DNA of 51,320 nt from Candidatus Bathyarchaeota archaeon (GTDB lineage: Archaea; Thermoproteota; Bathyarchaeia; 40CM-2-53-6; RBG-13-38-9). Positions 9,041 through 39,190 of the stretch are shown here, piece after piece (position 1 is the stretch's first letter; each line of letters starts with the position of its first letter). Both the position numbers and the translations under genes were made by a program. The stretch is from the NCBI GenBank assembly GCA_026015185.1, contig JAOZGX010000044.1, forward strand, positions 1-51,320, in the 5' to 3' direction. The notes beneath the pieces were generated by a model. It had not been told where the DNA came from. It worked only from the letters and a program-made list of their open reading frames with translations, and ran no database searches.

Positions 9041-9910
9041 TCAAGTTAATTTGATAACTCTTAATCCATCTTTATCAAAAGTTATCCTATTACTGAATAG
9101 ATTTCTGATACTATTGGTTTCATTTTTAGAATGAGCCGCTGGGTTGAATAAAAATAGTGATGTGGAATTGTATTCCGCTAGTAACTCTAACATCTTTCTT
9201 GTAAAATTATGGGCTTGTTTAAAACCGATCGAAACTATTAATTCTGATATATTATCGTAAATTAGCGCTATATCTTTTCTATTCTGATCTTCTAGAATAG
9301 GCGAAATAATCATTTCAGTAGTCTGATAGAATTCAATTCCTTCTTCGTCTTTAAGTAGTTTATGAATTACACCTGATTTTGGAGTTATAGTAATTATCGC
9401 CTTCCTATTAGAGTGTGCTTCGACTGTAAAATCTCTTATTGATCTCTCATATTGGGTATCTGGATCAATTTCAAGGAGAAAATTATGATTTTCAATTGAT
9501 TTGTGACTTAATTCTAATAACCTTGAGAATTTATCTAGTCTTACCCTTTCTAGTTGCTTGTTGATTTCAGATATTAAACTAGTATGAGTAAAAGGCTTTA
9601 TGAGATGCCCATCAGCACCTGCATCTTCACATAATTTTTTGTCAACATCTCTACCTAATACAGTAAAGATTATTATTGGAATCAATTTTGTTCTAGGATT
9701 GCTTTTTAATGCATTACATAGTTCTATTCCACTTTTAATGGGCATAACCAAATCTGAAAGAATAAGATCAGGCCATTCATTGATTACTTTTTTTAAACCC
9801 TCTTCCCCATTTGATGCTGTAATAGTATCAAAACCTTCACCTTCTAAAATCATTTTAGCTAAATTCAATGTATCAATTTCATCCTCTACGATTAAGATTT
9901 TATCAGGCAA
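9041..9910 (-). CDS. Response regulator with C-terminal degenerate KaiC/RecA-like domain
   Basis: 289 residues from TTG at 9910. The frame is open further into the kinase gene, but the paralogue at 38318-39190 begins at the equivalent TTG-CCT-GAT (LPDKIL), which fixes this start. Receiver domain (about 1-120): acidic pair ED in ILIVEDE, phospho-acceptor Asp in DLILSDLVMP, Thr in IIFTVLG, Lys in LIKPF. A C-terminal domain (about 140-289) runs from LLEIDPDTQYERSIRDF through a Walker-B-like strand (DIALIYDNISELIVSIGF) to SLFLFNPAAH and RITFDKDGLRVIKL, with no P-loop. The same domain occurs in 20820-23021 and 38318-39190. It lies seven bases after the kinase stop, so the two are cotranscribed. 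The output is likely protein-protein signalling. Confidence 0.9.
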   Translation of the reverse strand: MPDKILIVEDEIDTLNLAKMILEGEGFDTITASNGEEGLKKVINEWPDLILSDLVMPIKSGIELCNALKSNPRTKLIPIIIFTVLGRDVDKKLCEDAGADGHLIKPFTHTSLISEINKQLERVRLDKFSRLLELSHKSIENHNFLLEIDPDTQYERSIRDFTVEAHSNRKAIITITPKSGVIHKLLKDEEGIEFYQTTEMIISPILEDQNRKDIALIYDNISELIVSIGFKQAHNFTRKMLELLAEYNSTSLFLFNPAAHSKNETNSIRNLFSNRITFDKDGLRVIKLT

Positions 9911-9917
9911 TTTTATT

Positions 9918-12044
9918 CTACCTACTACGAACGAATCTTGGTATTGTAAAAATAAATGTAGATCCTTTTCTTTCACCCGGAGACTCGGCCCATATTTTAC
10001 CATAATGACCTTCGATTAATCCTTTAGATACGCTTAGGCCAAGACCTGTTCCTTTAACAAAGGTTTCTTTTTTTATATCAGCGAACGGCTGAAATATTTT
10101 CTCTATATCTCCTTTTTTAATGCCCATCCCTGTGTCCGATACTTCAATTTGGAAATATCTTTTCTTTTCTTTTACATTTAGCGATATTTTACCCTTTTTA
10201 AGAGTGAATTTGGTGGCATTATGAAGTAAATTCATTAATACTTGACTTAATCTATGGTAGTCTCCTCGTACTTTCAATTTTTTATTGGGAATTTTCGTAT
10301 CGAAGACTTGGTTTTTTCCAGCAATGAAAGGTTTTATTTCAATTAAACAATGATTCAAAACATCTCTTAAATCCATTGGCTTCATATTTAATTGGATCTT
10401 CCCCGATTCAATTCTACGAATGTCTAGTAAATCCTCAGTCAAATTAATGAGCCGATTGGTGTTGCGCCTAACAGCATCCAGACTTGATTTCATTCTTGCT
10501 GAAATTGGACCTAACTTTCCTGCTAGAATATAATCGACATAGCCTTTAATTGAAATTAAAGGCGTTCTCAATTCATGCGAAGCTATTATTATAAAGTGAT
10601 CTTTCATCTTCGTACGCGTCTTCTCTTGCTCAACCCTTCTAAGTGCTTCTTCAGTTTTTTTTTCGTCTGTGACATCTCTAACTACCGATATCACAGCTTT
10701 TTTACCGTCAGATGTTTTCGTGGGTTTTGCTCGGACATGCGATATCTTTCCAACTTCATCAGCCATGCGAGTATCTTCAAAATAATCCTTTCCATTTTCA
10801 AGTATTTGCTGTACTTCACAAGGAACACCCTTATAATGGCACGGTCTTTTCAGATTTCTAACTGCTTTATAGCATTTCTCTCCGATGATATCACCATGGA
10901 TATTCCTTGCAGTTTCATTGATAAACTGAAGGGTGTAATCCTCATCAATTACAAATAACCAATCTGACATATTTGAGAGAATATTATCTAGGAATGTTGA
11001 TGTATTTCTATAAATTTCTTCACTTTTTTTAAGTTCTTCCTCAATCTTCTTTCTATCAGAGATGTCATTAGCAATTACTTGAAAACCAACTATTCTACGA
11101 TTTAGAATATATAATGTTGGGCTAGAATGCATATGAACCGGGTGACCATCTTTATGCATAACCCTGTATTCTAGATCATACTTCCTTCTGGGATGTCTCC
11201 ATGCGCCTAAAAATTTTTTGACTAACTCTTTCTTATCGTCTGGATGGAGAAATTCATAGAAATTTTTTCCAATCATTTCTTCTTCTGAATAACCTATCAT
11301 TTTACAAAGCGCTTTATTAATATATGTGAATCTTCCTCTCATGTCAGTAACTGCTACACCAGAACCTGCATCTTCAATCAGGCTTCGATATTTAGCCTCA
11401 CTTTTTCTTAACTCCTCTTCAGTAATGTTTGCTTTTGATTTATCTTCAATCATCTCTAACGCAGTTGATATGTGAGAAGCAAGATTTCTTACAGTAGGAA
11501 CAAAGTAATCAGACAAATAGGGTGCGACTATCCCAATAATACCGCATACTTTTTTCTTCATATATATTGGAGTGAGTATAATCGATCTATCTATATATCC
11601 TAAAACTTTTGCTACTGGGATTGACAATCGTTTAGAGAGTATATTATTCAAAACATCGATAAGTGGAATGCAAACAGTCTTTTTTTTCTTTACGACTTCA
11701 TGAATAATACCCATACTATCTAGATCGCTCACAGACTCCATTATTTTGGTTCTGATGATTTTCTCAACAGATTTTAATCTTTTAGTTGGTGTTGAGATCT
11801 TGGCTACTTTTATTTTTGTTCCATCATCGCTTAATTTGAGGATAGCTATGGTATAGCCTTCTAGAGCGCGAAATTCATCTGCTATCATATCAAATAAAGC
11901 AGTCTCATTTTCTTGGCCATGTAACTTCGTAGAAACTCTTTCTATGAATTGTATAATATTAATTAAATTTCTTATTTGGACTTCATCAATGTCTTCTAGA
12001 CTCGGTTCTTTTAATTTAGTAAAGACCGCTTTCAAATTATACAA
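9918..12044 (-). CDS. Soluble sensor histidine kinase (GAF-PAS-PAS-HisKA-HATPase)
   Basis: 708 residues with no membrane span. A GAF-like sensor occupies about 30-205. The first PAS (about 215-335) includes GYSEEEMIGKNFYEFLHPDD. The second PAS (about 345-465) has a Cys-containing stretch (CYKAVRNLKRPCHYKGVPC) that could bind metal or sense redox. The H-box is SHELRTPLISIKGYVDYI (His near 485). The ATP-binding domain has N-box NLLHNATKF, G1 VSDTGMGI and G2 KGTGLGLSVSKGLIEGHYG. It autophosphorylates and should pass phosphate to the response regulator encoded seven bases downstream. TTG start. Its kinase core is close to that of the kinase at 36416-38173, so the two pairs are duplicates with different sensors. 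Confidence 0.95.
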   Translation of the reverse strand: MYNLKAVFTKLKEPSLEDIDEVQIRNLINIIQFIERVSTKLHGQENETALFDMIADEFRALEGYTIAILKLSDDGTKIKVAKISTPTKRLKSVEKIIRTKIMESVSDLDSMGIIHEVVKKKKTVCIPLIDVLNNILSKRLSIPVAKVLGYIDRSIILTPIYMKKKVCGIIGIVAPYLSDYFVPTVRNLASHISTALEMIEDKSKANITEEELRKSEAKYRSLIEDAGSGVAVTDMRGRFTYINKALCKMIGYSEEEMIGKNFYEFLHPDDKKELVKKFLGAWRHPRRKYDLEYRVMHKDGHPVHMHSSPTLYILNRRIVGFQVIANDISDRKKIEEELKKSEEIYRNTSTFLDNILSNMSDWLFVIDEDYTLQFINETARNIHGDIIGEKCYKAVRNLKRPCHYKGVPCEVQQILENGKDYFEDTRMADEVGKISHVRAKPTKTSDGKKAVISVVRDVTDEKKTEEALRRVEQEKTRTKMKDHFIIIASHELRTPLISIKGYVDYILAGKLGPISARMKSSLDAVRRNTNRLINLTEDLLDIRRIESGKIQLNMKPMDLRDVLNHCLIEIKPFIAGKNQVFDTKIPNKKLKVRGDYHRLSQVLMNLLHNATKFTLKKGKISLNVKEKKRYFQIEVSDTGMGIKKGDIEKIFQPFADIKKETFVKGTGLGLSVSKGLIEGHYGKIWAESPGERKGSTFIFTIPRFVRSR

Positions 12045-12084
12045 CTCTATATGTGAGTTAGAAGCATATCTTTCAAAGTAATAT

Positions 12085-12100
12085 TTAGTGCACGCGCTAA
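12085..12100. repeat. Degenerate GC palindrome
   Basis: TTAGTGCACGCGCTAA, with TTAG/CTAA ends and an imperfect GC-rich centre, between the kinase start and the end of the metallo-hydrolase gene. It is a weaker relative of the perfect elements. Confidence 0.5.
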
Positions 12101-12759
12101 TAATTGTATTCTAACATTTTCAAGACATAATCGAAATTATTTTTTACATTAATCTTATCTTTTATAATGTTTCCATGTCCGGGAAGTAAGTATTCTATAT
12201 CCATTTTAGATACATCTTCTATGCTTTTTTTAATTAGAGAAGCATCTCCGCCTGGAAGATCTGTTCTTCCAAAACTATATGCAAAAATAAGATCGCCACA
12301 GATCAAAACCTTCTTTTCAGGCCAATATACACAAATACTTCCTGGAGAATGGCCTGGCGTATAGATAATTTCCAATTTTAATCCATCGAGTTCAAATGAT
12401 TCTTCAAGAAAGAAATCAATATTAAAATCAGGGATTTCTAGCTCAAACATTTTGAATAACATTCCTCCATCGTTTTGAAGATACTTAGCTTCCAATTCAT
12501 GCATTGAAATTTTTACATTAGAAGATTTTGATAGAATTTCATTACTTTCACAATGATCTGGATGAGAATGGGAGTTGAATATGAAATCAATATTTTTTAG
12601 GTTGATTTTATCCTTTCTTATCTTTTGAAGTAGATTTTCTAAATTCCACGAATGCCCAGGATCTATTAATATGCAACGCTCATTTTTTATTACAATTGTG
12701 TTGCAATTATTTTTGAAACCTTCATAGTAGTACCAATAGAGATTATCAGATAATTTCAT
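12097..12759 (-). CDS. Metallo-beta-lactamase-fold hydrolase
   Basis: 220 residues. Metal-binding motifs are HSHPDHCE (HxHxDH), GHSPGSICVY, the bridging Asp in LICGDLIFA, and the last His in LPGHGNII. These define the glyoxalase II-like branch of the MBL fold, which hydrolyses thioesters and related substrates with two metal ions; the exact substrate is not evident. The ATG at 12759 has no clear ribosome binding site, as in leaderless archaeal transcripts. It lies upstream of the histidine kinase gene on the same strand (about 50 bases apart, with a degenerate GC palindrome between), so cotranscription is possible but not certain. Confidence 0.92.
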   Translation of the reverse strand: MKLSDNLYWYYYEGFKNNCNTIVIKNERCILIDPGHSWNLENLLQKIRKDKINLKNIDFIFNSHSHPDHCESNEILSKSSNVKISMHELEAKYLQNDGGMLFKMFELEIPDFNIDFFLEESFELDGLKLEIIYTPGHSPGSICVYWPEKKVLICGDLIFAYSFGRTDLPGGDASLIKKSIEDVSKMDIEYLLPGHGNIIKDKINVKNNFDYVLKMLEYNY

Positions 12760-12965
12760 CTATTGACTCAAGACGTGTTAAGCTTTTAATCTAATAAAGA
12801 TTTTCTATGGAATAGATATTAGAACATGTGTTAATTTTCTATAAGTTAATAATAACTTTAGTGATAAAAAGTAATGAATTTGACATAAATTTTTAGAACA
12901 TGAATAATCGAATATCGAAAATATGATCATGATTTATTGCTTTTTTATTAAAGAAGGAAGTATCT

Positions 12966-14180
12966 ATGGGGTATTTGTTAGGAATCATAGGTAAGCCAAA
13001 TGTTGGTAAATCAACATTCTTCACAGCAGTAACATTAGCTCAAGCACAGATCGCAAATTATCCTTTTACGACAATAGAACCCAATAAAGGTATTGGGTAT
13101 GTTAGAATTAATTGTGTTTGTAAAGAATTTGGAGTAAAGGACGAGCCAATAAATTCAATTTGTATTAACGGTGCTAGACTTATACCTGTGGAGATTGTTG
13201 ATTGCGCTGGATTAGTACCTGGGGCATGGGAAGGTAAAGGACTCGGCAATAAATTTTTGGACGAAATAAGAATGGCTGATGTATTAATTCATATAGTCGA
13301 CGCCTCAGGAGCTACAGATATCGAGGGTAAGATCTGTAAGCCTGGAGAACATGATCCAATTGAGGATATAAAATTCCTTGAAAGAGAAATTGACATGTGG
13401 TTGTTGAGAATTATTAAAAAAGATTGGGATAGGTTAATAAGAAGAGCTGAAGGGGTTGAGAAAAATTTAGTTGATGGATTGGAAAAAATTCTATCTGGTC
13501 TAGCAATCAAAAGGAATGATGTTGTTGATGCTATAAAGAAGACACAATTAGAGATCAAAAGTCCTAAAAATATCGATGATGAACGATTGTTAGATTTCAT
13601 ACATTTACTTAGAGAGATTTCAAAACCTATTCTAATAGTCGCAAATAAAATTGACGTACCTGAAGCTGAGGATAATTTGAATAGGTTAAAAAAAGAAGGC
13701 TATCAGACTATTCCATGTTGTGCAGAAGCGGAATTAGCATTAAGAAGAGCTTCGAATAAAAAAATAATAAATTATGTACCGGGCGAGAAAGATTTTGAAA
13801 TAATTAACCCAGGTATATTGACAGAAGACCAGAACTCGGCTTTATTAAGAATAAAAAATGATATTTTGAAAAAATTTGGAACCACAGGTGTCCAAAAATC
13901 TATTAATACTGCCTATTTTGATTTGCTTGAGATGATAATTGTGTATCCTGTGGTTGATGCGGATAAACTAACTGATCATAAGGATAAAATTCTTCCTGAT
14001 GTTTATCTCATTAAAAAAGGTACTAATGCAAGACAGTTAGCATATATGATTCATACCGATCTTGGCAAGAGTTTTATTTATGCTGTTGATGCTCGTAGAA
14101 AAATGAGAATTGGAGAGGATCACTCAGTAGAAAATAATGATGTAATTTCCATTGTAAGTTCTGAAAGAAGGGGCGCTTGA
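12966..14180 (+). CDS. YchF/OLA1-family GTPase, archaeal type
   Basis: 404 residues. P-loop GKPNVGKST (about 8-16), switch region YPFTTIEPNKGIGYV, G3 DCAGLVPGAWEGKGLG, G4 VANKIDVPE, and a C-terminal TGS domain (about 310-400, ending DVISIVSSERRGA). Archaeal and eukaryotic DRG/OBG-like members keep NKxD, as here, whereas the bacterial YchF core has an altered G4. The protein binds ribosomes and is thought to act in translation or stress response. The ATG follows AAGAAGGAAG, a usable ribosome binding site. The next gene is rpoP on the opposite strand, convergent with this one. Confidence 0.95.
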   Translation: MGYLLGIIGKPNVGKSTFFTAVTLAQAQIANYPFTTIEPNKGIGYVRINCVCKEFGVKDEPINSICINGARLIPVEIVDCAGLVPGAWEGKGLGNKFLDEIRMADVLIHIVDASGATDIEGKICKPGEHDPIEDIKFLEREIDMWLLRIIKKDWDRLIRRAEGVEKNLVDGLEKILSGLAIKRNDVVDAIKKTQLEIKSPKNIDDERLLDFIHLLREISKPILIVANKIDVPEAEDNLNRLKKEGYQTIPCCAEAELALRRASNKKIINYVPGEKDFEIINPGILTEDQNSALLRIKNDILKKFGTTGVQKSINTAYFDLLEMIIVYPVVDADKLTDHKDKILPDVYLIKKGTNARQLAYMIHTDLGKSFIYAVDARRKMRIGEDHSVENNDVISIVSSERRGA

Positions 14181-14222
14181 ATGTTAAGAAGCTCTACATA
14201 AAGATATTTGATCTATGTATAT

Positions 14223-14399
14223 TTATTTCGATTTTGTATGTTTAACTACGGGCGGTCTTATCTTCGTTAAAACTCTATAGCCACACATCGGACATTTTAT
14301 CTCTGGAGTTATTGCAAGCTGTTCAGCTGAAACTCTAGCTTTGCAACTGACACATTCATAAATAATCCCTCTTACATCTGATTCATCATTACTTTCCAA
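14223..14399 (-). CDS. rpoP: DNA-directed RNA polymerase subunit P (Rpb12 homologue)
   Basis: 58 residues. A Rpb12-type zinc ribbon: YECVSCKARVSAEQLA, then IKCPMCGYRVLTKIRPP, ending VVKHTKSK. The CPxCGYR...KxRPP signature is diagnostic for archaeal RpoP. The start must be TTG at 14399, since a TGA lies three codons upstream in frame, and GGTGA stands six bases before it. The subunit sits at the polymerase assembly platform with RpoD and RpoN. The gene lies between ychF and the tRNA methyltransferase, convergent with the former and divergent from the latter, which starts 75 bases away. Confidence 0.93.
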   Translation of the reverse strand: MESNDESDVRGIIYECVSCKARVSAEQLAITPEIKCPMCGYRVLTKIRPPVVKHTKSK

Positions 14400-14473
14400 A
14401 TTTTTTCACCTATTGGATATCTTTCAAGATAATATAATAGAATAAATAGAATTTTTTATTTAATTTAAAGATC

Positions 14474-15259
14474 ATGCCTTCTTTTGATATCATAGGCGAT
14501 ATTGCAGTAATAAAACGATTTTATAAAACTCAGAGTGAAGTTAAAAGGATTGCTGAAGAAATAATCAAAAAAAATAATCACATTAAGACTGTTCTGTGTC
14601 AGACAGCTGGAATCGATGGTGACTATAGAACAAGGCGATTAAAGTGGCTCATTGGTGAAAGAAAAACTTATACTATCTATTCTGAATTTGGATGTAGATT
14701 TTATCTTGATTTAGATTCTGTCTATTTTTCACCAAGATTAAGTTATGAAAGAATGAGAATTGCCAATCAAATTAGAACCCAAGAGACCATTTTGAATATG
14801 TTTGGAGGTGCAGGCAGTTTCTCTTTGATCATTGCCCGTTATGCACCTGCTTTAAAGGTATTCTCTATTGATATTAATCCGATAGCCACTCACTTGACAT
14901 TGATTAATATCAATCTAAACAATATAAGAAAAAAAGTAGTGGCGATTTTCGGAGATGCTGAGAGTTTAACTCAAGCATATTTTTTACAGAAAGTAGATCG
15001 AGTTTTAATGCCATTACCTGAAAAATCATATGAACTCTTAGAGGTTGCAGTAAATGCATTGAAAAATAAGCAAGGACATATCCATTACTATGACTTTATC
15101 CATTCTTATAAAAAAGAAGATCCAATTTCAAAAGGCATAGAAAAAATAACTAAAAAATTATTAGAACATAACATCGCTTTTGAAATCGAATTTGATAGAA
15201 TTGTTAGAAGCATAGGACCTAATTGGTATCAGATAGTTCTTGATATTAGAATACTGTAA
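14474..15259 (+). CDS. Trm5/TYW2-family tRNA methyltransferase-like protein
   Basis: 261 residues. The N-terminal part (IGDIAVIKRF...VLCQTAGIDGDYRTRRLKWLIG) matches the Trm5 D2 region. It is followed by YSEFGCRFYLDLDSVYFSPRLSYER, the SAM-binding Rossmann motif ETILNMFGGAGSFSL, IDINP, and the family motif MPLPEKSYELL in place of NPPY. Trm5 methylates G37 N1; TYW2/Taw2 transfers the aminocarboxypropyl group in wyosine synthesis. The protein is at the short end for Trm5 and lacks a clear D1 domain, so a Trm5a/b-like role is likely but not certain. It is divergent from rpoP; its stop codon abuts that of larB on the other strand. Confidence 0.88.
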   Translation: MPSFDIIGDIAVIKRFYKTQSEVKRIAEEIIKKNNHIKTVLCQTAGIDGDYRTRRLKWLIGERKTYTIYSEFGCRFYLDLDSVYFSPRLSYERMRIANQIRTQETILNMFGGAGSFSLIIARYAPALKVFSIDINPIATHLTLININLNNIRKKVVAIFGDAESLTQAYFLQKVDRVLMPLPEKSYELLEVAVNALKNKQGHIHYYDFIHSYKKEDPISKGIEKITKKLLEHNIAFEIEFDRIVRSIGPNWYQIVLDIRIL

Positions 15260-16060
15260 TTAGCTAGTTATTTTTTTATTGTTCCTTTCTTTGGCTATTT
15301 TATTCGCTATTAAGGCGGCGAATGTTCCTGCAGGTATTCCACCATCGATATTGACTACAGCTAAACCTAATGAACATGTCTGTAACATCGCAGCTAAAGC
15401 ACTAACTCCATCTTTTCCGAATCCATAACTTGTTGAAGTTGGTACACCTATTATTGGGATATCGACCAATCCCGCAACTACTGTTGGCAGAGCACCCTCT
15501 CTGCCTGCGATTATGATTAAAACATCAACATTATTATCTGTAATCTTTTTGAGTGAATCAACAAGTCTGTGTATACCTGCTACACCTACGTCATAAGACG
15601 ATACAACTTTACACCCCATCTCTTCAGCAATCACCCTGGCCTCTTCAGCAATTGGAATATCAGAAGTCCCTGCGGTTAAAATTCCAACTCTGCCGCCGGT
15701 ACTAACTGATTTAAATTCTTTTTTTAGGACGATCAAACCATTTTCTTCGCTTACATACGATATGCGTTCATTAAAGGATTTTTTTATCGATGAAATCTGT
15801 TCATCATTAGCTCTACTAATGAACACTCGCCCACATTTATCCAATATTTTTGATGTTATCTTGGTTAATTGATCATTTTTCTTTCCTTCGGCAAGTACAA
15901 TCTCAGGCATTCCCTTTCTAGACTCTCTATCTAGATCAATTTTAGCAAAATCATTTAACTCAAGAATTCTTTCGCTTTTAATTGATTTCTCAGCTTCTTC
16001 TATTGATATTTTTCCTTTAAGTAATTTCTCTAGAATATCTCTCAAGATACGTTTCTCCAT
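15260..16060 (-). CDS. larB: Nickel-pincer cofactor biosynthesis protein LarB
   Basis: 266 residues. It has an N-terminal helical segment (KISIEEAEKSIK) and a PurE/AIR-carboxylase-like domain with LTAGTSDIPIAEEARVIAEEMG, SYDVGVAGIHRL, IIIAGREGALPTVVAGLVDIPIIGVPTSTSYG and a glycine-rich end around AALIANKIAKERN. LarB carboxylates and hydrolyses nicotinic acid adenine dinucleotide in the first step of making the NPN cofactor of lactate racemase-type enzymes. ATG start. It is divergent from larC 116 bases away, so the intergenic stretch is probably a shared control region. larA and larE are not in this window. Confidence 0.95.
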   Translation of the reverse strand: MEKRILRDILEKLLKGKISIEEAEKSIKSERILELNDFAKIDLDRESRKGMPEIVLAEGKKNDQLTKITSKILDKCGRVFISRANDEQISSIKKSFNERISYVSEENGLIVLKKEFKSVSTGGRVGILTAGTSDIPIAEEARVIAEEMGCKVVSSYDVGVAGIHRLVDSLKKITDNNVDVLIIIAGREGALPTVVAGLVDIPIIGVPTSTSYGFGKDGVSALAAMLQTCSLGLAVVNIDGGIPAGTFAALIANKIAKERNNKKITS

Positions 16061-16176
16061 AGATAATTCTAAGATTCCTACCTAATTTAGGGTCCTAATT
16101 AAGTATTCAACATAATCTATTTCAATACACAAAAAAATAATAAAATCATTATCATGTTAATCTTTATGACTTACAA

Positions 16177-17445: not shown

Positions 17446-17456
17446 ATTAAAATATA

Positions 17457-17705
17457 CTAAAGTGGAGAACCAGCACAATCAACTTTGCCTTTTATTCTAC
17501 GTAGGAAATTTTTACAGGTGAAGCACTCGACAAATGATACGCTCTTTTCCATTACAGGGCACTCAACACACTCTTTTTTCATCCTTGAGATCATTTTCTT
17601 ACCAATTCCACCTTTTAATTCTTCAACTTTCTCTTTAGGAACTGGTTTAGCTCTTTCAAGCATCGTTATTTCAACACTATATTTTGCTCTCTTTTCATTA
17701 TCCAA
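17457..17705 (-). CDS. Small cysteine-rich protein, function unknown
   Basis: 82 residues. The first half is charged and helical (RAKPVPKEKVEELKGGIGKKMISRM). The second half carries five cysteines in CVECPVMEK, FVECFTCKNFLRRI and VDCAG, which could bind a zinc ion or an iron-sulfur cluster. The family is not recognised. The stop codon lies twelve bases from the larC stop on the opposite strand. The spacing of cysteines and the absence of a signal peptide point to a cytoplasmic metal-binding protein. Confidence 0.7.
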   Translation of the reverse strand: MDNEKRAKYSVEITMLERAKPVPKEKVEELKGGIGKKMISRMKKECVECPVMEKSVSFVECFTCKNFLRRIKGKVDCAGSPL

Positions 17706-18708: not shown

Positions 18709-18887
18709 TTAAGAATTAAATTTAAATAGGGTTAAATTTTAGTTAAAGGTTTAGAGACATAGAAAAAAGGATTAGCTATCTGTTATGCTGGGCAACTGTA
18801 CAACAATTACGATATTAAAGTCTTTACAATGCATTACAAAAGCACTGTTAAATTTTAAAAAAGAAATGGGGGGAACTATTTAGCAGC

Positions 18888-19196: not shown

Positions 19197-19250
19197 GGGA
19201 ATATTCTAAGGAAAGCATATATCGAATTGGATTCTGATGAAGGCAATAAA

Positions 19251-20754: not shown

Positions 20755-20819
20755 ATGTGATTAACAATCACATCTACTTCAAAAAAAATTATTATGTTAT
20801 ATCTTTACTAAGATATGGA

Positions 20820-23021
20820 ATGATGAACTTATTGATTACATTCTTCAAATGTGTGTGTTATAGGAATATTGCATCGATCATTAGTGCACACACGCATAAC
20901 ATATTTACGCTTCTAGTAATTTTCAATATAATTTTTGTATCATTGCCAACAGAACTAGCTTACTCTGATTCTCAGATGTTGACTGGCGAGATCGTATTTT
21001 CTAGCGATCGAGATGGCGATTTTGAAATATTTCTAATGAACAGTAATGGATCGAATCAGACTCAACTAACTTATGATGTCTCAAATAACTATAAACCAAC
21101 ATGGTCTCCTAATGGCTCAAGTATCTTATTTGAAAGTTTTAATGGTAGAATATTTGAAATGCATAATCTTAATGAATCTGCATTATTTCAAATTGGACCC
21201 GATATGCATAATGGAGATTTTAGGGAACCAACATGGTCTCCTGATGGGAGCAGGATAGCTTTTATTAGTAACCTAGAAGGTGATTATGAAATTTTTATTG
21301 GAGATACTGCTAATTTATTTAAAACTCAATTAACCCTTAGAGGCATAATACAACTGACGCATAATATAGCTACAGACATTACACCAACATGGTCTCCTGA
21401 CGGAACTAAGATTGCTTTTGCTAGTAACAGGGATGGAGATTATGAAATCTTTGTGATGAACGCAGATGGTATGAATCAATCCCAATTAACTTTTAATGGC
21501 ATAGATGATAATTACCCTGCATGGTCTCCTGACGGAACTAAGATTGCTTTTGCTAGTAACAGGGATGGAGACTATGAAATCTTCACTATAAACATTGATG
21601 GCTCAAATACAACTCAACTTACTGATAACAATGAAGATGATAATGATCCTGCTTGGTCCTATGATGGAACAAAAATTGCGTTTTCTAATCGCCAAAATAA
21701 TGACTATGAAATTTTTACAATGAACGCTGATGGTTCGAATTGGATTCAATTAACTGATAATGAAGCTAATGATCGCGTCCCTTCATGGCACCCTCAATAT
21801 GATATTGGTATTTTTGTTTTAGGCTTACCTTCTAAATATTCAGCAATTATTATTGTTGATGGAAAAGAGATGATTATAGAAGGGGGAGGTTTTCAAATTC
21901 TTTCTTTTGATCCAGGAACGAACCATACTATTGGCATTAAGAAAGAACTAATTGAAGGTGAATTAGGTACAAGATACATGAGCAATGTGTCATCAAGAAC
22001 TTTCAACTCAACTGGAGAAATTACATTTGATTATGTAACTCAATATTATTTGTATATATCATCACCTTATGGTAAAGCTACTGGCTCAGGGTGGTATAAT
22101 GAGGGCTCGATTGTGGATTTTAGCATAATCCCAAGTTTTGTGTCGAATATCTTTGATATTCAATACAACTTTATCGGTTGGAGTGGTGACTTTGTAATTG
22201 ATAGTACTAATGCAACAATTGTTATGGATAAACCGTATGTAATAAAGGCAGAATGGGAAAAAAATAAAACTCAATTTAATATTGCGATAGGATTAATAAT
22301 CGCAATAAGTTTGACCATAGTAGCACTAATATTTGTATATAGAACAGATAGAATTAAATCTAAGAAAATTATATCATCGAAATTATTCGCATCAAAACAC
22401 AATCTATATGCATTGGTTACACGAATAAAACATCAAACTCTTAATATGACAAAATCAAAAATTTCATTTAAAAAATTGCCGCTTGAAGAAGAAGTGAACT
22501 TGAAAAAACCTCAAACAAAAACCTTTAAAGGATTTCTAAAGGTCCTAGGATTGGATCGTAAAGAGCTGCGCGGTCGTAGAATTCTCTTTGAGTTCGACCC
22601 TTCCACCTTATATGAAGAGGTTATTATTAATTTTGTGAAAGAATCTCAAACTGACACAGAAAAAATTATTTTATTTTCACCTAAGTCCAGCATCTTATAT
22701 GAAAAATTAAAAAATGTGAAAGATATCGAGTTTGTTCCATTATCGGAAATGATTTTATCACCTATCTTTGATACCCATTCAGGGAAACATTTGACAATAA
22801 TATATGATAACTTATCAGAATTGATTATATCGATTGGATTTGACTCTAGCTATAGATTCATAAGGAAAACTTTAGAATTGTTAGCTGATTATGATTCTAC
22901 AGCTTTATTCCTTTTTAATCCAAATGCACATGCTTCTAATGAAACTAATAGTATTAGGAGTCTATTTAGCGATCGAATAGTTTTCGAAAAAGAAGGGCTG
23001 AAAATCATTAAACTAGCTTAA
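20820..23021 (+). CDS. Membrane receptor: extracellular TolB-like beta-propeller with cytoplasmic degenerate KaiC-like domain
   Basis: 733 residues. A hydrophobic signal/anchor (NIFTLLVIFNIIFVSLP, about 27-45) precedes five or six WD40-like PD40 repeats of TolB type (xxWSPDGTKIAFASNRDGDYEIFVMNADG..QLT), about 55-345. A beta-rich region with an InlB/List-Bact-like segment (YYLYISSPYGKATGSGWYNEG) runs to about 490. One membrane span follows (FNIAIGLIIAISLTIVALIF), then a basic linker. The last 150 residues (FEFDPSTLYEEVIINFV to RIVFEKEGLKIIKL) are clearly homologous to the C-terminal domains of the response regulators at 9041 and 38318. It probably senses something outside and signals inside. 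The downstream aconitase gene appears independent. Confidence 0.88.
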   Translation: MMNLLITFFKCVCYRNIASIISAHTHNIFTLLVIFNIIFVSLPTELAYSDSQMLTGEIVFSSDRDGDFEIFLMNSNGSNQTQLTYDVSNNYKPTWSPNGSSILFESFNGRIFEMHNLNESALFQIGPDMHNGDFREPTWSPDGSRIAFISNLEGDYEIFIGDTANLFKTQLTLRGIIQLTHNIATDITPTWSPDGTKIAFASNRDGDYEIFVMNADGMNQSQLTFNGIDDNYPAWSPDGTKIAFASNRDGDYEIFTINIDGSNTTQLTDNNEDDNDPAWSYDGTKIAFSNRQNNDYEIFTMNADGSNWIQLTDNEANDRVPSWHPQYDIGIFVLGLPSKYSAIIIVDGKEMIIEGGGFQILSFDPGTNHTIGIKKELIEGELGTRYMSNVSSRTFNSTGEITFDYVTQYYLYISSPYGKATGSGWYNEGSIVDFSIIPSFVSNIFDIQYNFIGWSGDFVIDSTNATIVMDKPYVIKAEWEKNKTQFNIAIGLIIAISLTIVALIFVYRTDRIKSKKIISSKLFASKHNLYALVTRIKHQTLNMTKSKISFKKLPLEEEVNLKKPQTKTFKGFLKVLGLDRKELRGRRILFEFDPSTLYEEVIINFVKESQTDTEKIILFSPKSSILYEKLKNVKDIEFVPLSEMILSPIFDTHSGKHLTIIYDNLSELIISIGFDSSYRFIRKTLELLADYDSTALFLFNPNAHASNETNSIRSLFSDRIVFEKEGLKIIKLA

Positions 23022-28095: not shown

Positions 28096-28141
28096 TAATT
28101 ATTATGATAATGAAAAATCTTAGTATAGTCAAGGTACTAAG

Positions 28142-29672: not shown

Positions 29673-29735
29673 GTCATTGCACCAAAAAAGATTTTAATAA
29701 TATATTTGCAATTATGGTCTGAAGGTTGTTGGTTT

Positions 29736-30056: not shown

Positions 30057-30078
30057 ATTATTTCAATATTTCAGCAAC

Positions 30079-30609: not shown

Positions 30610-30728
30610 TTTTTACACGCCTTTAGTTAATTTTTGTTGAAGTAGTAATTATTTTCAATTTTTGATTTCATCTAAATTGAATTAAAAAAAAGATTCTAAA
30701 AGAAGTTAAAGTCCATTATTTGTCAAGA

Positions 30729-31655: not shown

Positions 31656-31660
31656 TTTTA

Positions 31661-32839: not shown

Positions 32840-32846
32840 TTTTAAG

Positions 32847-33125
32847 CTAACCTTCCACCATCTTTATGCATTTTACAGGGCATTCAGCAGCACATAGACC
32901 GCATCCTTTGCATTGATCGTAATTAATTTCAACTCCATCTTTGGGTCTATCTATTGATGGTTCTGGGCAAAAAATCCAACAAAGTAAGCATTTCGTGCAC
33001 TTTTCATGATCTATGACTGGTTTAAAGACTCTCCAGTCACCTGTTTTGTATTGTGGATCCCCGGGTTTGTATACGTTACCTGCTAATGGAACATCTTTAT
33101 AATTGGGAAATTCAATCTCACTCAT
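32847..33125 (-). CDS. porD: Pyruvate:ferredoxin oxidoreductase, delta (ferredoxin) subunit
   Basis: 92 residues. Two [4Fe-4S] ferredoxin motifs, CTKCLLCWIFCPEPS and CKGCGLCAAECPVKC, sit after an N-terminal extension ending TGDWRVFKPVIDHEKC, exactly the POR delta layout. It wires electrons from the thiamine site to external ferredoxin. The ATG overlaps the porC stop by four bases (ATGA), indicating translational coupling. Confidence 0.96.
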   Translation of the reverse strand: MSEIEFPNYKDVPLAGNVYKPGDPQYKTGDWRVFKPVIDHEKCTKCLLCWIFCPEPSIDRPKDGVEINYDQCKGCGLCAAECPVKCIKMVEG

Positions 33126-33691
33126 AATTCAGTTACCTCTTCATAAGCTTTCTTAATTGCTTCAACATTTTTCTCTCCTATAGCACCATGAAAGCGTTCA
33201 GAAACTGATTTACAAATTGAATCTAATTTAATTAAAGGTTCGACCTTCACTACTGCTCCTAACATCGCTGTATTTGTTATAGGTTTACCAAGGATGTCTA
33301 AGGCAATTCTAGTGGCATCAACCGTATAGGTTTTAGTATTTTTAATATCTAATTTTTTATTCAAATCACTGGAATTTAAATCCGTATTAACAACAAGTTT
33401 ACCATTATCAACTAGCCCAGATTTAACATCAATAGTTCCTAAAAGCGTAGGATCCAAGACAACTACCATATTTGGATTGTAAATTTGGCTATGTATTCGT
33501 ATCTTTTCATCACTAATTCTTGTAAATCCTCGAATAGGTGCTCCGGTCCTTTCCGGGCCAAATTCAGGAAATGCTTGAACATGTTTGCCCTCATCCATTG
33601 CTGCTTGGGCTAGAAGCCTACTGGCTGTAACTACACCTTGACCTCCCCTGCCGTGCCATCTTATCTCGAATTGCAGCCCAAATACCTCCAT
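33122..33691 (-). CDS. porC: Pyruvate:ferredoxin oxidoreductase, gamma subunit
   Basis: 189 residues. EIRWHGRGGQGVVTASRLLAQAAMDEGKHVQAFPEFGPERTGAPIRGFTRIS is the POR/KOR gamma signature (GRGGQG, FPEFGPERxGAP). It is the first gene of the por operon. The ATG at 33691 is annotated, but GGAGG just inside the frame raises a start a few codons later near CTG/TTG (LQFEIRWHG). The promoter must lie in the 195-base gap to the divergent flavoprotein gene. Confidence 0.95.
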   Translation of the reverse strand: MEVFGLQFEIRWHGRGGQGVVTASRLLAQAAMDEGKHVQAFPEFGPERTGAPIRGFTRISDEKIRIHSQIYNPNMVVVLDPTLLGTIDVKSGLVDNGKLVVNTDLNSSDLNKKLDIKNTKTYTVDATRIALDILGKPITNTAMLGAVVKVEPLIKLDSICKSVSERFHGAIGEKNVEAIKKAYEEVTEL

Positions 33692-33886
33692 TGATTTTTA
33701 TTATGAAAAGAGCAGGCTAATATTTGAAAGTTTTGCGTAAAATTAATAACTAATTCGTCACACATCCCAACGCTGCAGATCTATAGGATACCTATACATT
33801 TAACAAACTTCAATTCTTATCATTTCTTTTATCTGCCAAATCAATATTGACTATTGCGTTTGAAATATGAAAATGTGAGAATAAAA

Positions 33887-34459
33887 ATGGTAAAAATTAT
33901 AGGAATATCTGGTAGTCCTCGCTCAGAGGGGAATACTGAGTTTATTGTCAAAGAGGCTCTTAATGAAGCAAAGAAAGAAGGTTTTGAAACTGAATTTCTA
34001 AGCCTTTCTGGAAAGGCTATCAAACCATGCGATGCATGTTTATCCTGTAAAGAAGTTAAAAAATGCATTATACAGGATGATTTTGAGACAATTTTTACAA
34101 AAATGATTGAAGCAGACGGTATAATATTAGGGTCTCCGGTATATTTTGGATCAGCAACTCCGGAGATTAAGGCTCTTATCGATAGAGCAGGATATGTCTC
34201 TTATCAATCAGGAAGAAGGTACTTTGAGAATAAAGTTGGAGGTCCATTAGTTGTTGCACGTAGAGCCGGACAGAATTTTACTTTAGCACAACTTCTATTC
34301 TTTTTCTTACATCAAGGAATGATTGTACCTGGTTCTACATATTGGAATATTTCCTTCGGTAGAGATAAGCTACAAGTCAGAGATGATGAAGAAGGTAGAA
34401 ATACTGCGAAGAATTTTGGAAAGAAAATGGTTTGGATATTAAAGAAATTAAAAGAGTGA
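33887..34459 (+). CDS. Iron-sulfur flavoprotein (Isf-like), NADPH-dependent FMN reductase family
   Basis: 190 residues from the ATG at 33887. Flavodoxin-like fold with the FMN phosphate loop GISGSPRSEGNTEFIV and the compact cysteine motif CDACLSCKEVKKC that holds a [4Fe-4S] cluster in Isf. Then come GSPVYFGSATPEIKALIDRAG and VGGPLVVARRAGQNF. Isf proteins accept electrons from ferredoxin and reduce oxygen, peroxide or unknown partners. Its position divergent from the por operon, which makes reduced ferredoxin, suits this. The frame extends to TTG 33854 without support. Confidence 0.92.
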   Translation: MVKIIGISGSPRSEGNTEFIVKEALNEAKKEGFETEFLSLSGKAIKPCDACLSCKEVKKCIIQDDFETIFTKMIEADGIILGSPVYFGSATPEIKALIDRAGYVSYQSGRRYFENKVGGPLVVARRAGQNFTLAQLLFFFLHQGMIVPGSTYWNISFGRDKLQVRDDEEGRNTAKNFGKKMVWILKKLKE

Positions 34460-34486
34460 TTGTCTAGACTTATCACGATTTTAAAT

Positions 34487-34945
34487 TCAAGCGGTGTATC
34501 TACCATCTTGTTTCTGCTGCACATTGGATTGAGGAGGACCAATTGTAGGTAAAGGTGGTGGCACGCCTATGGTTTTTGATATGAGAATTGCCTCTGCCAT
34601 AGAAGCATTTGATATTGCTTGTACAAGGGGTACTGGAGGTGACTTTTTTTCTTCATATTCTAATAATATTTTATTAATTTCGTTCCTTTCTCCGGAAGCT
34701 TGAGCTTTTCCTTTAATGTTAATCTGGGCTATTGACGGGGTAAAATTGACTGTAAAAACAAAAGGAGCATCTATTGTGACATCAGATCTTTTTTCTATTC
34801 CAAGCACATTTACATTTATAGCTATTTGCATTTGAGGAGGTATGGGTTTATCTGTCTCCCATAATCGTTCTCCAGATACCTGATTAACGAATATTCTTAT
34901 GCCTATCTTAATTCCTGTTGGTTTATTCCCTTGAGCACTCATCAA
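34487..34945 (-). CDS. SecB-like/unknown beta-rich protein
   Basis: 152 residues. An extended beta region (IKIGIRIFVNQVSGERLWE, IAINVNVLGIEKRSDVTID, FVFTVNFTPSIAQINIKGKAQ) is followed by a C-terminal helix (VQAISNASMAEAILISKTIG) and a proline-rich tail (VPPPLPTIGPP). This order resembles archaeal SecB-like small chaperone relatives, with strands followed by helices and a proline-rich end, but no signature residue proves it. The gene is convergent with the flavoprotein gene and follows a two-span membrane protein on the same strand, 23 bases downstream. Confidence 0.6.
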   Translation of the reverse strand: MMSAQGNKPTGIKIGIRIFVNQVSGERLWETDKPIPPQMQIAINVNVLGIEKRSDVTIDAPFVFTVNFTPSIAQINIKGKAQASGERNEINKILLEYEEKKSPPVPLVQAISNASMAEAILISKTIGVPPPLPTIGPPQSNVQQKQDGRYTA

Positions 34946-34968
34946 TCGATACCTTTACAATCTCTCTA

Positions 34969-35298
34969 CTATAGCTTTATTTTTCGTTCTTTAGCTATTT
35001 TCAGGATAATATTTTTAAATTTCTTTCTAGCTCGCCAAGTTACAAGATATCCAACTAAAATGATCACAATACCTACTGTGGTTATTATAACGATTAACCA
35101 TATAAGCTCTGCCAACATTGCTTGTATATAAGCAAAAGGTTGAACTCTAAGTTGAATTATACCTGCCATAATTATAAATAAAGGGGCTATTAAGACAGCG
35201 CCGACAATCATCATGGATTTACCAAGTACTAAACTTGTTGTGAATTGCGACCTGGCCAATGATGTTATCATATCATATTTTACATCTTCTTTTGTCAA
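34969..35298 (-). CDS. Two-span membrane protein, function unknown
   Basis: 109 residues. A polar N terminus (TKEDVKYDMITSLARSQF) precedes two strong membrane spans (MMIVGAVLIAPLFIIMAGIIQL and LIWLIVIITTVGIVIILVGYLV) and a basic, helical cytoplasmic tail (RARKKFKNIILKIAKERKIKL). No family recognised. It is likely cotranscribed with the SecB-like gene downstream. ATG start with AAGAAGAT-like purines upstream. Confidence 0.65.
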   Translation of the reverse strand: MTKEDVKYDMITSLARSQFTTSLVLGKSMMIVGAVLIAPLFIIMAGIIQLRVQPFAYIQAMLAELIWLIVIITTVGIVIILVGYLVTWRARKKFKNIILKIAKERKIKL

Positions 35299-35668
35299 TT
35301 TTTTTCCTCCAAGATTCTATTTTTTCAAAAACTATGAGTTCTAGTAAATAAAGGTTTAATTGTGCGCGCTAGCACGAGCAAGACCTGCTTCTAAGCCGGT
35401 AAATCAATTAATAAGTATAATAATATAGTGGTCTAGTCGAATTTGCATAGAAAGGAATTGGATAATGATGCCGAAATTGGTTTTAGATGTCTAGACAATA
35501 ATGCTGTAGATATGAATAATATTCAACTGATCCTTAGCTTGTTCCTAGCTAGCTACTTACCAGACTCTCAAATTATTCTGCATGATAGAGCCAATAATAT
35601 ATATTACATAAATCGTTCAGCCACGTTAATCTTAAAATTGAAGTTAATGTATATTGTATTGATACATT
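35299..35668. other. Intergenic stretch
   Basis: Contains the GC element variant above and a 79-codon frame (35443-35682) that overlaps the next gene and has no recognisable character. Otherwise AT-rich, with promoters for both divergent genes expected. Confidence 0.5.
35362..35375. repeat. GC element variant
   Basis: GTGCGCGCTAGCAC: GTGC/GCAC arms around GCGCTA, in the gap between two divergent membrane-protein genes. With 36276-36287 it brackets the gene at 35669-36256. Confidence 0.55.
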
Positions 35669-36256
35669 TTGAAAACATTTGATTCGTTCATCATCGGAAT
35701 GATGATTTTAATTTCAGGAATACTCGGTACAATTGTGTTGTTTGTGCTCACTTTAGGGTCCAACTTTATGATTTTTCTTGTAAGAAGAGATCCAGAACTT
35801 ATTCCTAATGAATACATTACGCTTCTTTATGTTATTGTTATTCTGATAATATTCGGTTTAATGGTTTTCTGGGCTATCATTCCTTTGAATAATAAATTTC
35901 GCTTTATTCCGAAATTAAGAAAAAAGGATATTGAACCATCTCCAGAAAAAAAATTCAGTCCATCAGTAACATTAGCTAAAGTTAAGAAGCCACGCAAGCA
36001 AATAAATCTAAATTTCTTCTCCAAAATAAGAAGAAAAAAGAAGCAAACTATACCAGTTAAACAAATAGAGACCTCTAAACCTGAAATCGCAACAACCAAT
36101 ATGCCACAATATTCGGAGCCTGTGATCACTGGGGCAGTAGACAAGTCTCTTACGCCTTCAAAAGCTGAATTATTGAGGGCCGCAATGTTGGCACTTGAAA
36201 AAAGTGAAACTGAGCTTGCAAGAGAATTTGTCAAACATGCTAAAAAAGCAGAATAA
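35669..36256 (+). CDS. Membrane protein with basic linker and C-terminal helical domain
   Basis: 195 residues. Two membrane spans (about 7-38, SFIIGMMILISGILGTIVLFVL; about 50-72, LYVIVILIIFGLMVFWAII) are followed by a long lysine-rich cytoplasmic linker (KLRKKDIEPSPEKK...KIRRKKKQTIPVKQ) and a short C-terminal helical hairpin (SKAELLRAAMLALEKSETELAREFVKHAKKAE). The highly basic linker may contact nucleic acid or phospholipid. No family recognised. TTG start at 35669. The GC palindrome at 36276 follows 20 bases after the stop. Confidence 0.6.
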   Translation: MKTFDSFIIGMMILISGILGTIVLFVLTLGSNFMIFLVRRDPELIPNEYITLLYVIVILIIFGLMVFWAIIPLNNKFRFIPKLRKKDIEPSPEKKFSPSVTLAKVKKPRKQINLNFFSKIRRKKKQTIPVKQIETSKPEIATTNMPQYSEPVITGAVDKSLTPSKAELLRAAMLALEKSETELAREFVKHAKKAE

Positions 36257-36275
36257 ATTAGCGCAAATATCTTTC

Positions 36276-36287
36276 TAGCGCGCGCTA
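36276..36287. repeat. Alternating GC palindrome
   Basis: Perfect palindrome TAGCGCGCGCTA between the ends of the convergent genes 35669-36256 and the histidine kinase. Its position suits a shared terminator stem. Confidence 0.75.
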
Positions 36288-36415
36288 AAAGTTTCTTTCA
36301 GATTCTTCCTACAGGTATATTATGAGGACCCTTTTGTAGGTATTAACCAAATTTAGTACGCTCTTCTGCTCACCTATACTTTTATTTTTACATATCTGGT
36401 ATAGTTGATAATCAG

Positions 36416-38173
36416 TCATTCCATTCTTGGTAAAGTAAAAATAAATACGGCTCCTTTATCTTCCCCTTGCGAGTCTGCCCAAATCTTACCACCATGTCCT
36501 TCTATTAGACCTTTGGTTACACTAAGACCAAGACCAGTACCCTTAATGTAAGTTCTTCTATTAATATTAGCAAAAGGCTCAAATATCCTTTTAAGATCTT
36601 TTTTTCTTATCCCGATACCTGTATCACTTACTTCAATTTTGAAATAATAACTCTTCTTTTCGACTTTTAGTATTATTTCTCCATCTTCTGGCGTAAACTT
36701 AGAAGCATTATTTAGGATATTCATCAGAGCTTGACCAAGCCTAATTTTATCTCCAATTATTGGTAAATGGCCCTTTTGAATTTTTATTTTTAAAGTCTGA
36801 TTTTTTTCTTTAATAAAGGGTCGAATTTCTTTAATACACTGCTCTAGGACCTCTTGAAAATCTAAAGGTTCTAGGTTTACTATGATCTTTCCGGATTCTA
36901 TGCGTCGAATGTCTAATAAATCATCAGTTAGACTAAGAAGACGTTCAGTATTTCGCTTGACTATCTCCAATTCAATTTTTGCAAGTCTAGGGATCCGGCC
37001 ATCTTTTCCATCTAAAATTCGATCCATATAGCCTTTTATTGAGACTAATGGGGTTCTTAGTTCATGTGTAGCTGCAGATATGAATTTATCTCTAATTTGT
37101 AAACGGCTTTTTTCTTCTTCAGCATCTTTTATAGCGTTTTCAATCTCTATTCGATCTGTAATATCTCTTAGAACGATTGTTCGGAGTCCAATTCGGCCAG
37201 TTCCATCAACTATAGGGGAAATAGTAATTTCATAGACGTGACTCTTACCATTTATATCAAGCGTTACTTTATCTAATTTTGTTTTTGATATTCTGGACCA
37301 TTGATTCCATACATGATCTATTTTTTTACCAATAACATCCTTTGTGGATTTGCCAAATAAGCTTTCAGCTGAAGGATTTAGATTCATAACTCGATTACTA
37401 TCATCCAAAACGATTATTGAGTCTTTCATACTTTCAATGATGGCATCATGAGCAACTGGCATGATATCTACAATTTGCAATTTGGATGGATTAATCCATG
37501 TCAAAAAATTAGCTATTATAAGAACTATTACTGGAGTTACATATGTAGGCACAAGTCGTAATACCATCATTAAGAAAATGCTACCGAAAAATGGTATTAT
37601 TACAGATAAAAGAAGAAATAAAGCCCGAAGTTGATATAATTTTTGTGATTTGCTAAGCGAATAAATGGAGAATAATAATGATAGTAAAAGAATCAAATAA
37701 GTATAAAAAATAAAAATCCATAACCATAAGCCAATCGACTCAAAACGTCCAAATGATATCGCTAGAGAGGAATTGTCAAAGTTGAACATGGTTGGAGACC
37801 AGATCCAACCATGAGCTTCGTTAGTGAAGATTAGTAACAAAGTAATTATCGGTATTATACTTAATAAAAACAAGTAACGCCGTATTAAAAATCGTTCATA
37901 ACCAAGATATTGAAGTGTATGGATAAGCCATAGGGTCGGAACAATAGAAACTCCTAAGAATTGAAATTTATGCCAAAATATCTTTAACCATAGTATATCG
38001 CTCCATATTTCAAATACTAATCCTGTTGCCCATATGGAACCGCCGATTAGAAGAAAAGCTAATGTTTTTGATCTAGGATCTGGGCGTTTCCAAAGAAAAA
38101 ATAGCGATATTAATGAAAGAGTTGATAATGCAATTAATATAATCGTATAAATATGGAAAAAATTTTCTAGAAT
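36416..38173 (-). CDS. Membrane histidine kinase (7TM-PAS-HisKA-HATPase) with a non-standard start
   Basis: About 585 residues if extended to 38173. The first ATG/GTG/TTG in frame is a TTG at 37873, but the 100 codons before it clearly encode the missing membrane helices and loops (LIALSTLSLISLFFLWKRPDPRSKTLAF, IWATGLVFEIW, IVPTLWLIHTLQYLGYERFLI). The frame opens after a TAG, and AGGAG/AGAGG precede ATT at 38171-38173, so ATT is the likely start. A seven-span sensor of the HisKA_7TM type is followed by one PAS (SIIVLDDSNRVMNLNPSAESLFG), H-box THELRTPLVSIKGYMDRI, N-box NILNNASKF and G2 KGTGLGLSVTKGLIEGHGG. It forms an operon with the response regulator upstream. Confidence 0.88.
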   Translation of the reverse strand: MLENFFHIYTIILIALSTLSLISLFFLWKRPDPRSKTLAFLLIGGSIWATGLVFEIWSDILWLKIFWHKFQFLGVSIVPTLWLIHTLQYLGYERFLIRRYLFLLSIIPIITLLLIFTNEAHGWIWSPTMFNFDNSSLAISFGRFESIGLWLWIFIFYTYLILLLSLLFSIYSLSKSQKLYQLRALFLLLSVIIPFFGSIFLMMVLRLVPTYVTPVIVLIIANFLTWINPSKLQIVDIMPVAHDAIIESMKDSIIVLDDSNRVMNLNPSAESLFGKSTKDVIGKKIDHVWNQWSRISKTKLDKVTLDINGKSHVYEITISPIVDGTGRIGLRTIVLRDITDRIEIENAIKDAEEEKSRLQIRDKFISAATHELRTPLVSIKGYMDRILDGKDGRIPRLAKIELEIVKRNTERLLSLTDDLLDIRRIESGKIIVNLEPLDFQEVLEQCIKEIRPFIKEKNQTLKIKIQKGHLPIIGDKIRLGQALMNILNNASKFTPEDGEIILKVEKKSYYFKIEVSDTGIGIRKKDLKRIFEPFANINRRTYIKGTGLGLSVTKGLIEGHGGKIWADSQGEDKGAVFIFTLPRME

Positions 38174-38317
38174 AGCCCTCTATTCTCCTAAAACTTTTTC
38201 GAATAATTATATCTTTGCAATTCACTTAGCTAAATTATACTAATCATGATTTCAAAAATTTGATCTTAATGAAAATTAATTAAATAGAGTCATTGATTTT
38301 TATAGTAAAAAAAACTG

Positions 38318-39190
38318 CTACATGATTCTAATTTTCCTCAATCCATTCTTATCGTATGAGATTTGATTGCTAAAGAGCCCTTTTATACTAGATACATCTT
38401 TTGGCTCATGGGCCAAAGGATTCAAAAGAAAAAGTGCGGTTATTCCGAATTCTGAAAGATATTTAAGAGCATTTTGAAAATATCCATATGCAGATTCGAC
38501 ATTTGTTGATAGGGTAATATCGGTGATGCTGTCGTAGACCAGACATAAAGATTCTTTAGAATATTTTTCTAGGACTTCAGATAGAGTTTGTTGATACGAA
38601 ATATTCAGAATTTCGACACCATCATCTCCTTTGAGCGCATTTTGAATTACACTACCTCCATGCGTAAGTACTAAAGCTATCTTATTGTAAAAAACACATT
38701 CATGAACAAAGTCCCTGATGGCTCTTTCATACGGGAATGATGGGTCAAACTCAAGTAGAATTATTCTTCCTATAATGTCTTTATGTTTCAGGTCTAATTG
38801 ATTAGAGAATTTTACAGCTTTAGTCTCTTCTAAGTATCTTTTAATTTCTACTAAAAAATCTTCACTTTCAAAAGGTTTAACAAGGTGGCCATCTGCTCCA
38901 CATTGGATGGAAAGTTTTTTATCAGAATTCCTACCTAGGACTGTAAACATGACAACGGGGATATGTTTGGTTCTATCTTGAGTTTTCAAAACCTTACAAA
39001 CATCTAATCCACTCTTCCCAGGCATCACAACATCTAGAATTATTAAATCAGGTATTTCTAAATTTGCTTTAATTAAAGCTTCATCACCACTGTAAGCTTC
39101 AATAACTTGATATCCTGCTTCCAACAGTGTCTTTCTAGCCAAATCTAGAATGTCTGGTTCGTCATCAACAACAAGAATTTTATCAGGCAA
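38318..39190 (-). CDS. Response regulator with C-terminal degenerate KaiC/RecA-like domain
   Basis: 290 residues. Receiver domain (1-120): ILVVDDEPD, phospho-acceptor in LIILDVVMPGKSG, VMFTVLGRN and LVKPF. The C-terminal domain (about 135-290) has LLEFDPSFPYERAIRDF, a Walker-B-like SLCLVYDSITDITLS, ALFLLNPLAH and NQISYDKNGLRKIRI, and lacks a P-loop. It is a full-length paralogue of 9041-9910. TTG start (TTG-CCT-GAT). It lies upstream of the histidine kinase on the same strand and is divergent, by about 90 bases, from the KaiC-like ATPase, whose Walker-B segment resembles that of this C-terminal domain. Confidence 0.92.
   Translation of the reverse strand: MPDKILVVDDEPDILDLARKTLLEAGYQVIEAYSGDEALIKANLEIPDLIILDVVMPGKSGLDVCKVLKTQDRTKHIPVVMFTVLGRNSDKKLSIQCGADGHLVKPFESEDFLVEIKRYLEETKAVKFSNQLDLKHKDIIGRIILLEFDPSFPYERAIRDFVHECVFYNKIALVLTHGGSVIQNALKGDDGVEILNISYQQTLSEVLEKYSKESLCLVYDSITDITLSTNVESAYGYFQNALKYLSEFGITALFLLNPLAHEPKDVSSIKGLFSNQISYDKNGLRKIRIM

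Follow-up and report, generated by a model that had tools for sequence, protein, structure and literature searches.

Two response regulators and one propeller-bearing membrane protein of a Candidatus Bathyarchaeota archaeon, all encoded on the 51,320-nucleotide (nt) contig JAOZGX010000044.1 (GCA_026015185.1; the whole contig is hereafter termed the window), share a C-terminal domain of ~165 residues (38-51% identical), which structural modelling and profile comparison support as a KaiC/RecA-fold module devoid of a P-loop. Genes for this inactivated KaiC (iKaiC) domain recur beside genes for intact KaiC-like ATPases in the relatives of the host. The scheme favoured here, with a probability of roughly 0.6, is that the dead iKaiC domain docks on the ring of a live KaiC, which would serve as the output of two-component and one-component signalling routes alike.

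The shared domain and its fold

The original prediction of a common block order in the C-terminal parts of the three proteins was confirmed by direct comparison. With the domain of the regulator at 9041-9910 as query, the match spans the whole domain both in the receptor at 20820-23021 (50% identity, E=2e-49) and in the second regulator at 38318-39190 (38% identity, E=1.7e-34), and the motifs FDPxxxYE, a hydrophobic strand ending in DN or DS, LFLxNPxAH and a closing GLxxIK were verified. As had been proposed, the domain forms the C-terminal module of two-component regulators and also the inner half of a one-protein receptor with a propeller. A fourth copy is located behind a receiver (REC) domain on contig C51 (59820-60308; 52% identical to the 9041 domain, E=1.2e-54), and the iKaiC domain is carried by three of the four REC domains of the genome. 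Because a contig scan with a single full-length regulator gave only three receiver-domain matches, in Flavobacteria, the family was assembled via whole-genome searches, which resulted in 53 members and 59 domain rows for motif counts. The 53 sequences are 22-51% identical to the first, and the loop motifs are still conserved among them.

The AlphaFold2 model of the domain, built with 16 natural sequences, reached a predicted local distance difference test score (pLDDT) of 90.6 and a predicted TM-score (pTM) of 0.88, and displayed the order strand-loop-helix, strand, helix, strand, helix, Walker B strand, two helices, strand, helix and hairpin. When compared with the PDB by Foldseek, its first match was FlaH/ArlH (4yds, E=3.9e-7), followed by KaiC, sso2452 and PH0284; the top KaiC/FlaH matches had E about 1e-6 and TM-scores of 0.6-0.7 by query. 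Model and Foldseek together place the domain in the KaiC/RecA superfamily, with a RecA-like alpha/beta core and a KaiC-type strand order. Profile comparison by hhalign led to the same assignment, in local alignments only, the global alignment being meaningless: against the adjacent KaiCs, E=7e-4 was obtained with 16 sequences and 7.4e-5 with 53 rows, and against a KaiC set of 31 rows E=8.4e-5, values near 8e-5 being those of domain alignments with 53-57 sequences, while the receiver-domain control gave 0.16. This control, together with the KaiC/FlaH fold match, led to the rejection of an unrelated Rossmann domain or a duplicated receiver as the identity of the domain. A sequence search of the PDB with 16 rows returned nothing relevant. 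Two bridge proteins were also detected, namely L137, which matches KaiC (8.9e-24), DUF7504 (1.1e-11) and the domain profile (6e-13), and the receptor L006 of the same genome as the window, which retains an intact P-loop and matches KaiC (2.4e-27) and DUF7504 (2.1e-11).

The loss of catalytic features is consistent throughout the family. The Walker A motif GxxxxGK[TS] is absent from all 59 domain rows, in agreement with the earlier statement that none of the three window proteins has a GxxxxGKT loop, and the P-loop position, which links strand 1 to helix A, is filled by the conserved FDPxxxYE, with the strand E23-28 and the helix H34-47 flanking it in the model. In keeping with the noted resemblance of the Walker B segment to that of KaiC, a Walker B strand with its Asp is common to both, and this residue (D250) is kept in 56 of the 59 rows. 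The catalytic Glu pair after strand 2 is missing; the YEES of KaiC CII stands opposite TrkgS, in which the T and the S are conserved. The HMMER alignment to KaiC CII begins three residues after FDPxxxYE, and its register sets Y-E opposite the K-T that we take to be K294/T295; as this alignment is not significant (E about 0.5), the placement draws its support chiefly from the model. With its P-loop lost and the Walker B Asp kept, the domain is, judging from sequence and model, a dead ATPase domain of the iKaiC kind and not one simply lacking its first half. It combines homology to KaiC, lost ATPase motifs and fusion to signalling domains.

KaiC as neighbour and proposed partner

The domain is present in 50 of the 257 genomes of the class. 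Its genomic neighbours, whose survey had been suggested as a check, were examined in a sample of 53 domain genes in which one over-represented family had been thinned; for 20 of them, a KaiC gene whose Walker A motif is intact stands no more than 500 nt away. Counted by genus, such a KaiC was found in 18 of 27, where the density of KaiC genes would predict 0.35; if genera are treated as independent, the formal P is about 1e-31. The arrangements are operonic, divergent and convergent. Co-directional KaiC genes stand upstream of seven-transmembrane (7TM) or single-transmembrane (TM) receptors in G055, G089, G105, G118, G119, G123, G230-G232, G236, G239, G242, G193 and G050, divergent or convergent ones accompany REC-iKaiC genes in the window, G006, G047 and G036, and a divergent one faces a receptor in G111. 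Moreover, KaiCs group in their tree according to which architecture the adjoining domain protein has: 7 changes are needed, as against 21.7 in shuffles, and two or more clades of KaiC take part. The KaiC encoded at 39280..40035 sits in a clade with KaiCs adjoining the REC-iKaiC genes of relatives. This gene begins 90 nt from the regulator at 38318-39190, in the divergent orientation already noted and with an intact P-loop, and its product is a candidate partner of the iKaiC domain.

From these fusions and neighbours we infer the following scheme. Inputs would arrive either through a REC domain fed by the neighbouring histidine kinase or from a propeller outside the cell via a single membrane helix, both fusions being visible in the sequences. 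The dead domain would then dock on the ring that a live KaiC-like ATPase, for instance that at 39280-40035, forms in the cytosol, or would fill a subunit position within it, and phosphorylation or ligand binding may alter this docking and so set the ATPase, autophosphorylation or partner-binding state of KaiC. The copies at 9041 and 20820 might address the same KaiC or another of the genome's roughly six to eight.

The suggestion in the original prediction that the domain mimics or partners KaiC is upheld as regards the KaiC/RecA-fold homology and the gene neighbourhood across the class. For the partnering itself, several points weigh on the other side. Only the 38318 copy among the four of this genome adjoins a KaiC gene; the other two window copies do not, that at 9041 lying 29 kb and that at 20820 16 kb from KaiC, and the distance is about 16 kb for the C51 copy. 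In a small control, 4 of 12 REC-iKaiC genes and 1 of 10 REC genes without the domain stand beside KaiC, numbers too small for significance. Furthermore, the sequence-only match to solved KaiC is not significant by itself (E about 0.5 with 53 rows, plus ubiquitin noise), and adjacency is a sign of functional association and no proof of contact.

In a rather unlikely alternative, iKaiC is a general protein-interaction adaptor with a target other than KaiC, and the neighbouring KaiC reflects a shared regulon or signalling islands. In its favour, most copies are not beside KaiC, KaiC genes are plentiful (up to 20 per genome), and signalling genes cluster, for example in the C39 region of G006 with its several histidine kinase, REC and KaiC genes. 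However, a neighbouring KaiC is seen again and again in 18 genera, be the gene order operonic, divergent or convergent, KaiC clades sort by partner architecture, and the domain and KaiC are homologous. Homologues of KaiC tend toward mixed oligomers.

It is considered improbable that the domain works without a live KaiC partner, either as an independent sensor of a nucleotide or ligand or as a module for homodimerisation, in the manner of ArlH. Such a role would suit the nearly invariant Walker B Asp and the best fold match, which is ATP-bound FlaH, and it has a precedent in ArlH, where ATP is bound but not hydrolysed (PMC8978795); but classical ATP binding is unlikely because the P-loop Lys and Thr are missing in all 59 rows, with the conserved FDPxxxYE in their place. 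That the domain is a decayed relic without function of its own, carried along with receiver and receptor parts, agrees with the lost catalytic residues and is nonetheless very improbable, given the loop motifs conserved across the 53 sequences and the retention of the domain in several different architectures.

Some loci with KaiC genes deserve separate mention. Within about 30 kb, a signalling island in G006 (L056-L057; G006:C39:258000-294000) brings together four genes for REC-iKaiC, two for KaiC and several for histidine kinases. The bridge receptor L006 (94-2025 of G000:C113) comprises a signal-peptide-like start, an ectodomain, a single TM helix and a KaiC domain whose P-loop, GAPGSGKT, is intact, and its gene is convergent with that of the cytosolic KaiC L003. 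Coordinates suggest the pairing of a receptor-KaiC with a free KaiC in many relatives, e.g. G018:C52, G023:C47, G105:C10 and G006:C43.

Known families and domain architectures

In terms of Pfam, the domain falls between DUF7090, DUF7504 and DUF835, and most single matches are at or below the curated cut-offs. At E<=1e-3, 35 of the 53 members match DUF7090, 26 DUF7504 and 24 DUF835. The cut-off of DUF835 (PF05763, 33.1 bits) is not reached by the window proteins, which score 16.9 and 14.6 bits, with one unlisted, and the best DUF835 match among the relatives has E=2.5e-12. That of DUF7090 (PF23365, 27 bits) is just exceeded by 9041 (27.2) and missed by 20820 (23.4) and 38318 (20.0). DUF7090 and DUF7504 (PF24336) are function-unassigned families, which give the domain its best Pfam scores, and their matches mostly cover only its Walker B half; no mention of either was found in the literature searched.

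The concept of inactivated KaiC, together with the proposal of KaiC as a signalling hub, is reportedly that of Makarova et al. (2017, mBio 01959-17). That archaeal signalling uses KaiC domains devoid of a P-loop is an already established idea (Galperin et al. 2018, PMC5847659). There, DUF835 is described as iKaiC, including in REC-DUF835 response regulators, and REC-DUF835, iKaiC-REC and MEDS-REC are tabulated in Table 2. As in the window proteins, an archaeal REC is fused in them to a P-loop-less KaiC-like domain, for which protein-protein contacts were proposed; by contrast, the parts of PMC5847659 consulted contain neither the FDPxxxYE and LFLxNPxAH motifs nor the repeated occurrence of KaiC next door, nor architectures with a propeller or 7TM-MEDS. 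True DUF835 proteins are separate in the same genome (C8 and C85), and hhalign of the domain against its two DUF835 copies gave E=0.008, which is suggestive only. Beside a MEDS protein in this genome, a PAS-GAF-DUF835 protein was noticed (L069, 2802-5076 of G000:C85), another pair of dead KaiCs. MEDS (PF14417) is likewise a P-loop-less KaiC-like sensory domain of archaeal signalling, listed as iKaiC in PMC5847659; a family of its own, it directly precedes the iKaiC domain in 7TM relatives and does not occur in the three window proteins. With the KaiC-like ATPases (PF06745), including ArlH/FlaH, the domain shares the fold, the strand order and the Walker B strand with its Asp, but it lacks the Walker A Lys/Thr, the Glu pair and the N-terminal GxxGLD segment of KaiC, measures about 165 residues and is fused to inputs. 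What is new is the divergent branch between DUF835, DUF7504 and DUF7090, its receptor architectures and the recurrent KaiC pairing; the latter two were not found in the literature searched, and Makarova et al. 2017 may mention some of them.

The architectures observed comprise REC-iKaiC, the PD40 propeller-InlB-like-TM-iKaiC protein of the window, CARDB or LamG ectodomain-TM-iKaiC, 7TM-MEDS-iKaiC and soluble MEDS-iKaiC. The MEDS-iKaiC tandem is matched best by full-length KaiC with its two domains, at E=3.8e-11 and along about 460 alignment columns, which suggests that MEDS-iKaiC receptors carry a dead double KaiC; the tandem model has a pLDDT of 73, and its domain packing is uncertain. Five soluble MEDS-iKaiC paralogues (L101-L105) are scattered in one genome, G118, without a KaiC neighbour.

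Most archaeal response regulators have no DNA-binding output, and their mode of action is open (PMC5847659). With three of the four REC domains of this genome ending in a dead KaiC and a live KaiC next door in relatives, the hub proposal can be put to a direct test on proteins that are small and soluble and have a defined partner. The extension of the scheme to a general archaeal arrangement, in which many receptors (7TM, propeller, CARDB/LamG) and most regulators of a lineage end in a dead KaiC that plugs into the ring of a dedicated live KaiC next door, so that KaiC rather than DNA binding would be the two-component output, is evenly balanced between true and false.

Features of the window

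Positions in the window and the basis of each assignment
Feature	Position	Strand	Basis
REC-iKaiC response regulator	9041..9910	-	REC about 9551-9898 (4e-22) plus P-loop-less KaiC-like domain 9041-9547; DUF7090 3.8e-6, DUF835 0.028
Degenerate P-loop position IDPDTQYE (consensus FDPxxxYE), strand 1 to helix A	9446..9469	-	Model secondary structure and KaiC CII register
PAS-containing histidine kinase	9918..12044	-	HisKA 1e-11, HATPase_c 2.5e-24, PAS
One-protein receptor	20757..23021 (also given as 20820-23021)	+	PD40 4.5e-46, Flg_new_2 3.6e-4, DUF7090 5.5e-5, DUF835 0.0057
7TM-PAS histidine kinase	36416..37873	-	HisKA_7TM 2.3e-16, HisKA, HATPase_c; downstream of regulator 38318-39190
REC-iKaiC response regulator	38318..39190	-	iKaiC domain 38318-38827; REC 6.4e-25, DUF7090 6.3e-4; KaiC 0.055 over the Walker B part
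AT-rich intergenic stretch between divergent regulator and KaiC	39191..39279	none	Sequence reading
Intact single-domain KaiC-like ATPase	39280..40035	+	PF06745 1.7e-58, P-loop GGPGVGKT

For the first regulator, an ATG start at 10003 is possible, and the TTG at 9910 agrees with the homologues; the PAS-containing kinase is encoded immediately upstream in the same direction. The receptor possesses an N-terminal hydrophobic segment, a PD40/TolB-like propeller (about 20980-21795), an InlB-like repeat (about 22068-22265), one TM helix (about 22266-22322) and the iKaiC domain (22515-23018) on the inside, its hydrophobic segments being at residues 38 and 504. The 7TM kinase looked truncated, and its frame is open upstream to about 38180, which completes the 7TM part. 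The first ATG, GTG or TTG of this frame is at 37873, with the 7TM region partly upstream of that codon; because the open frame extends 5' of 37873, the start codon is either unusual or mis-sequenced. Two TFB genes in the host genome mark it as archaeal. At 49101-50339, a leader is followed by repeats like the head repeats of trimeric adhesins (UspA1_rep, 1e-6), which are unusual in an archaeon.

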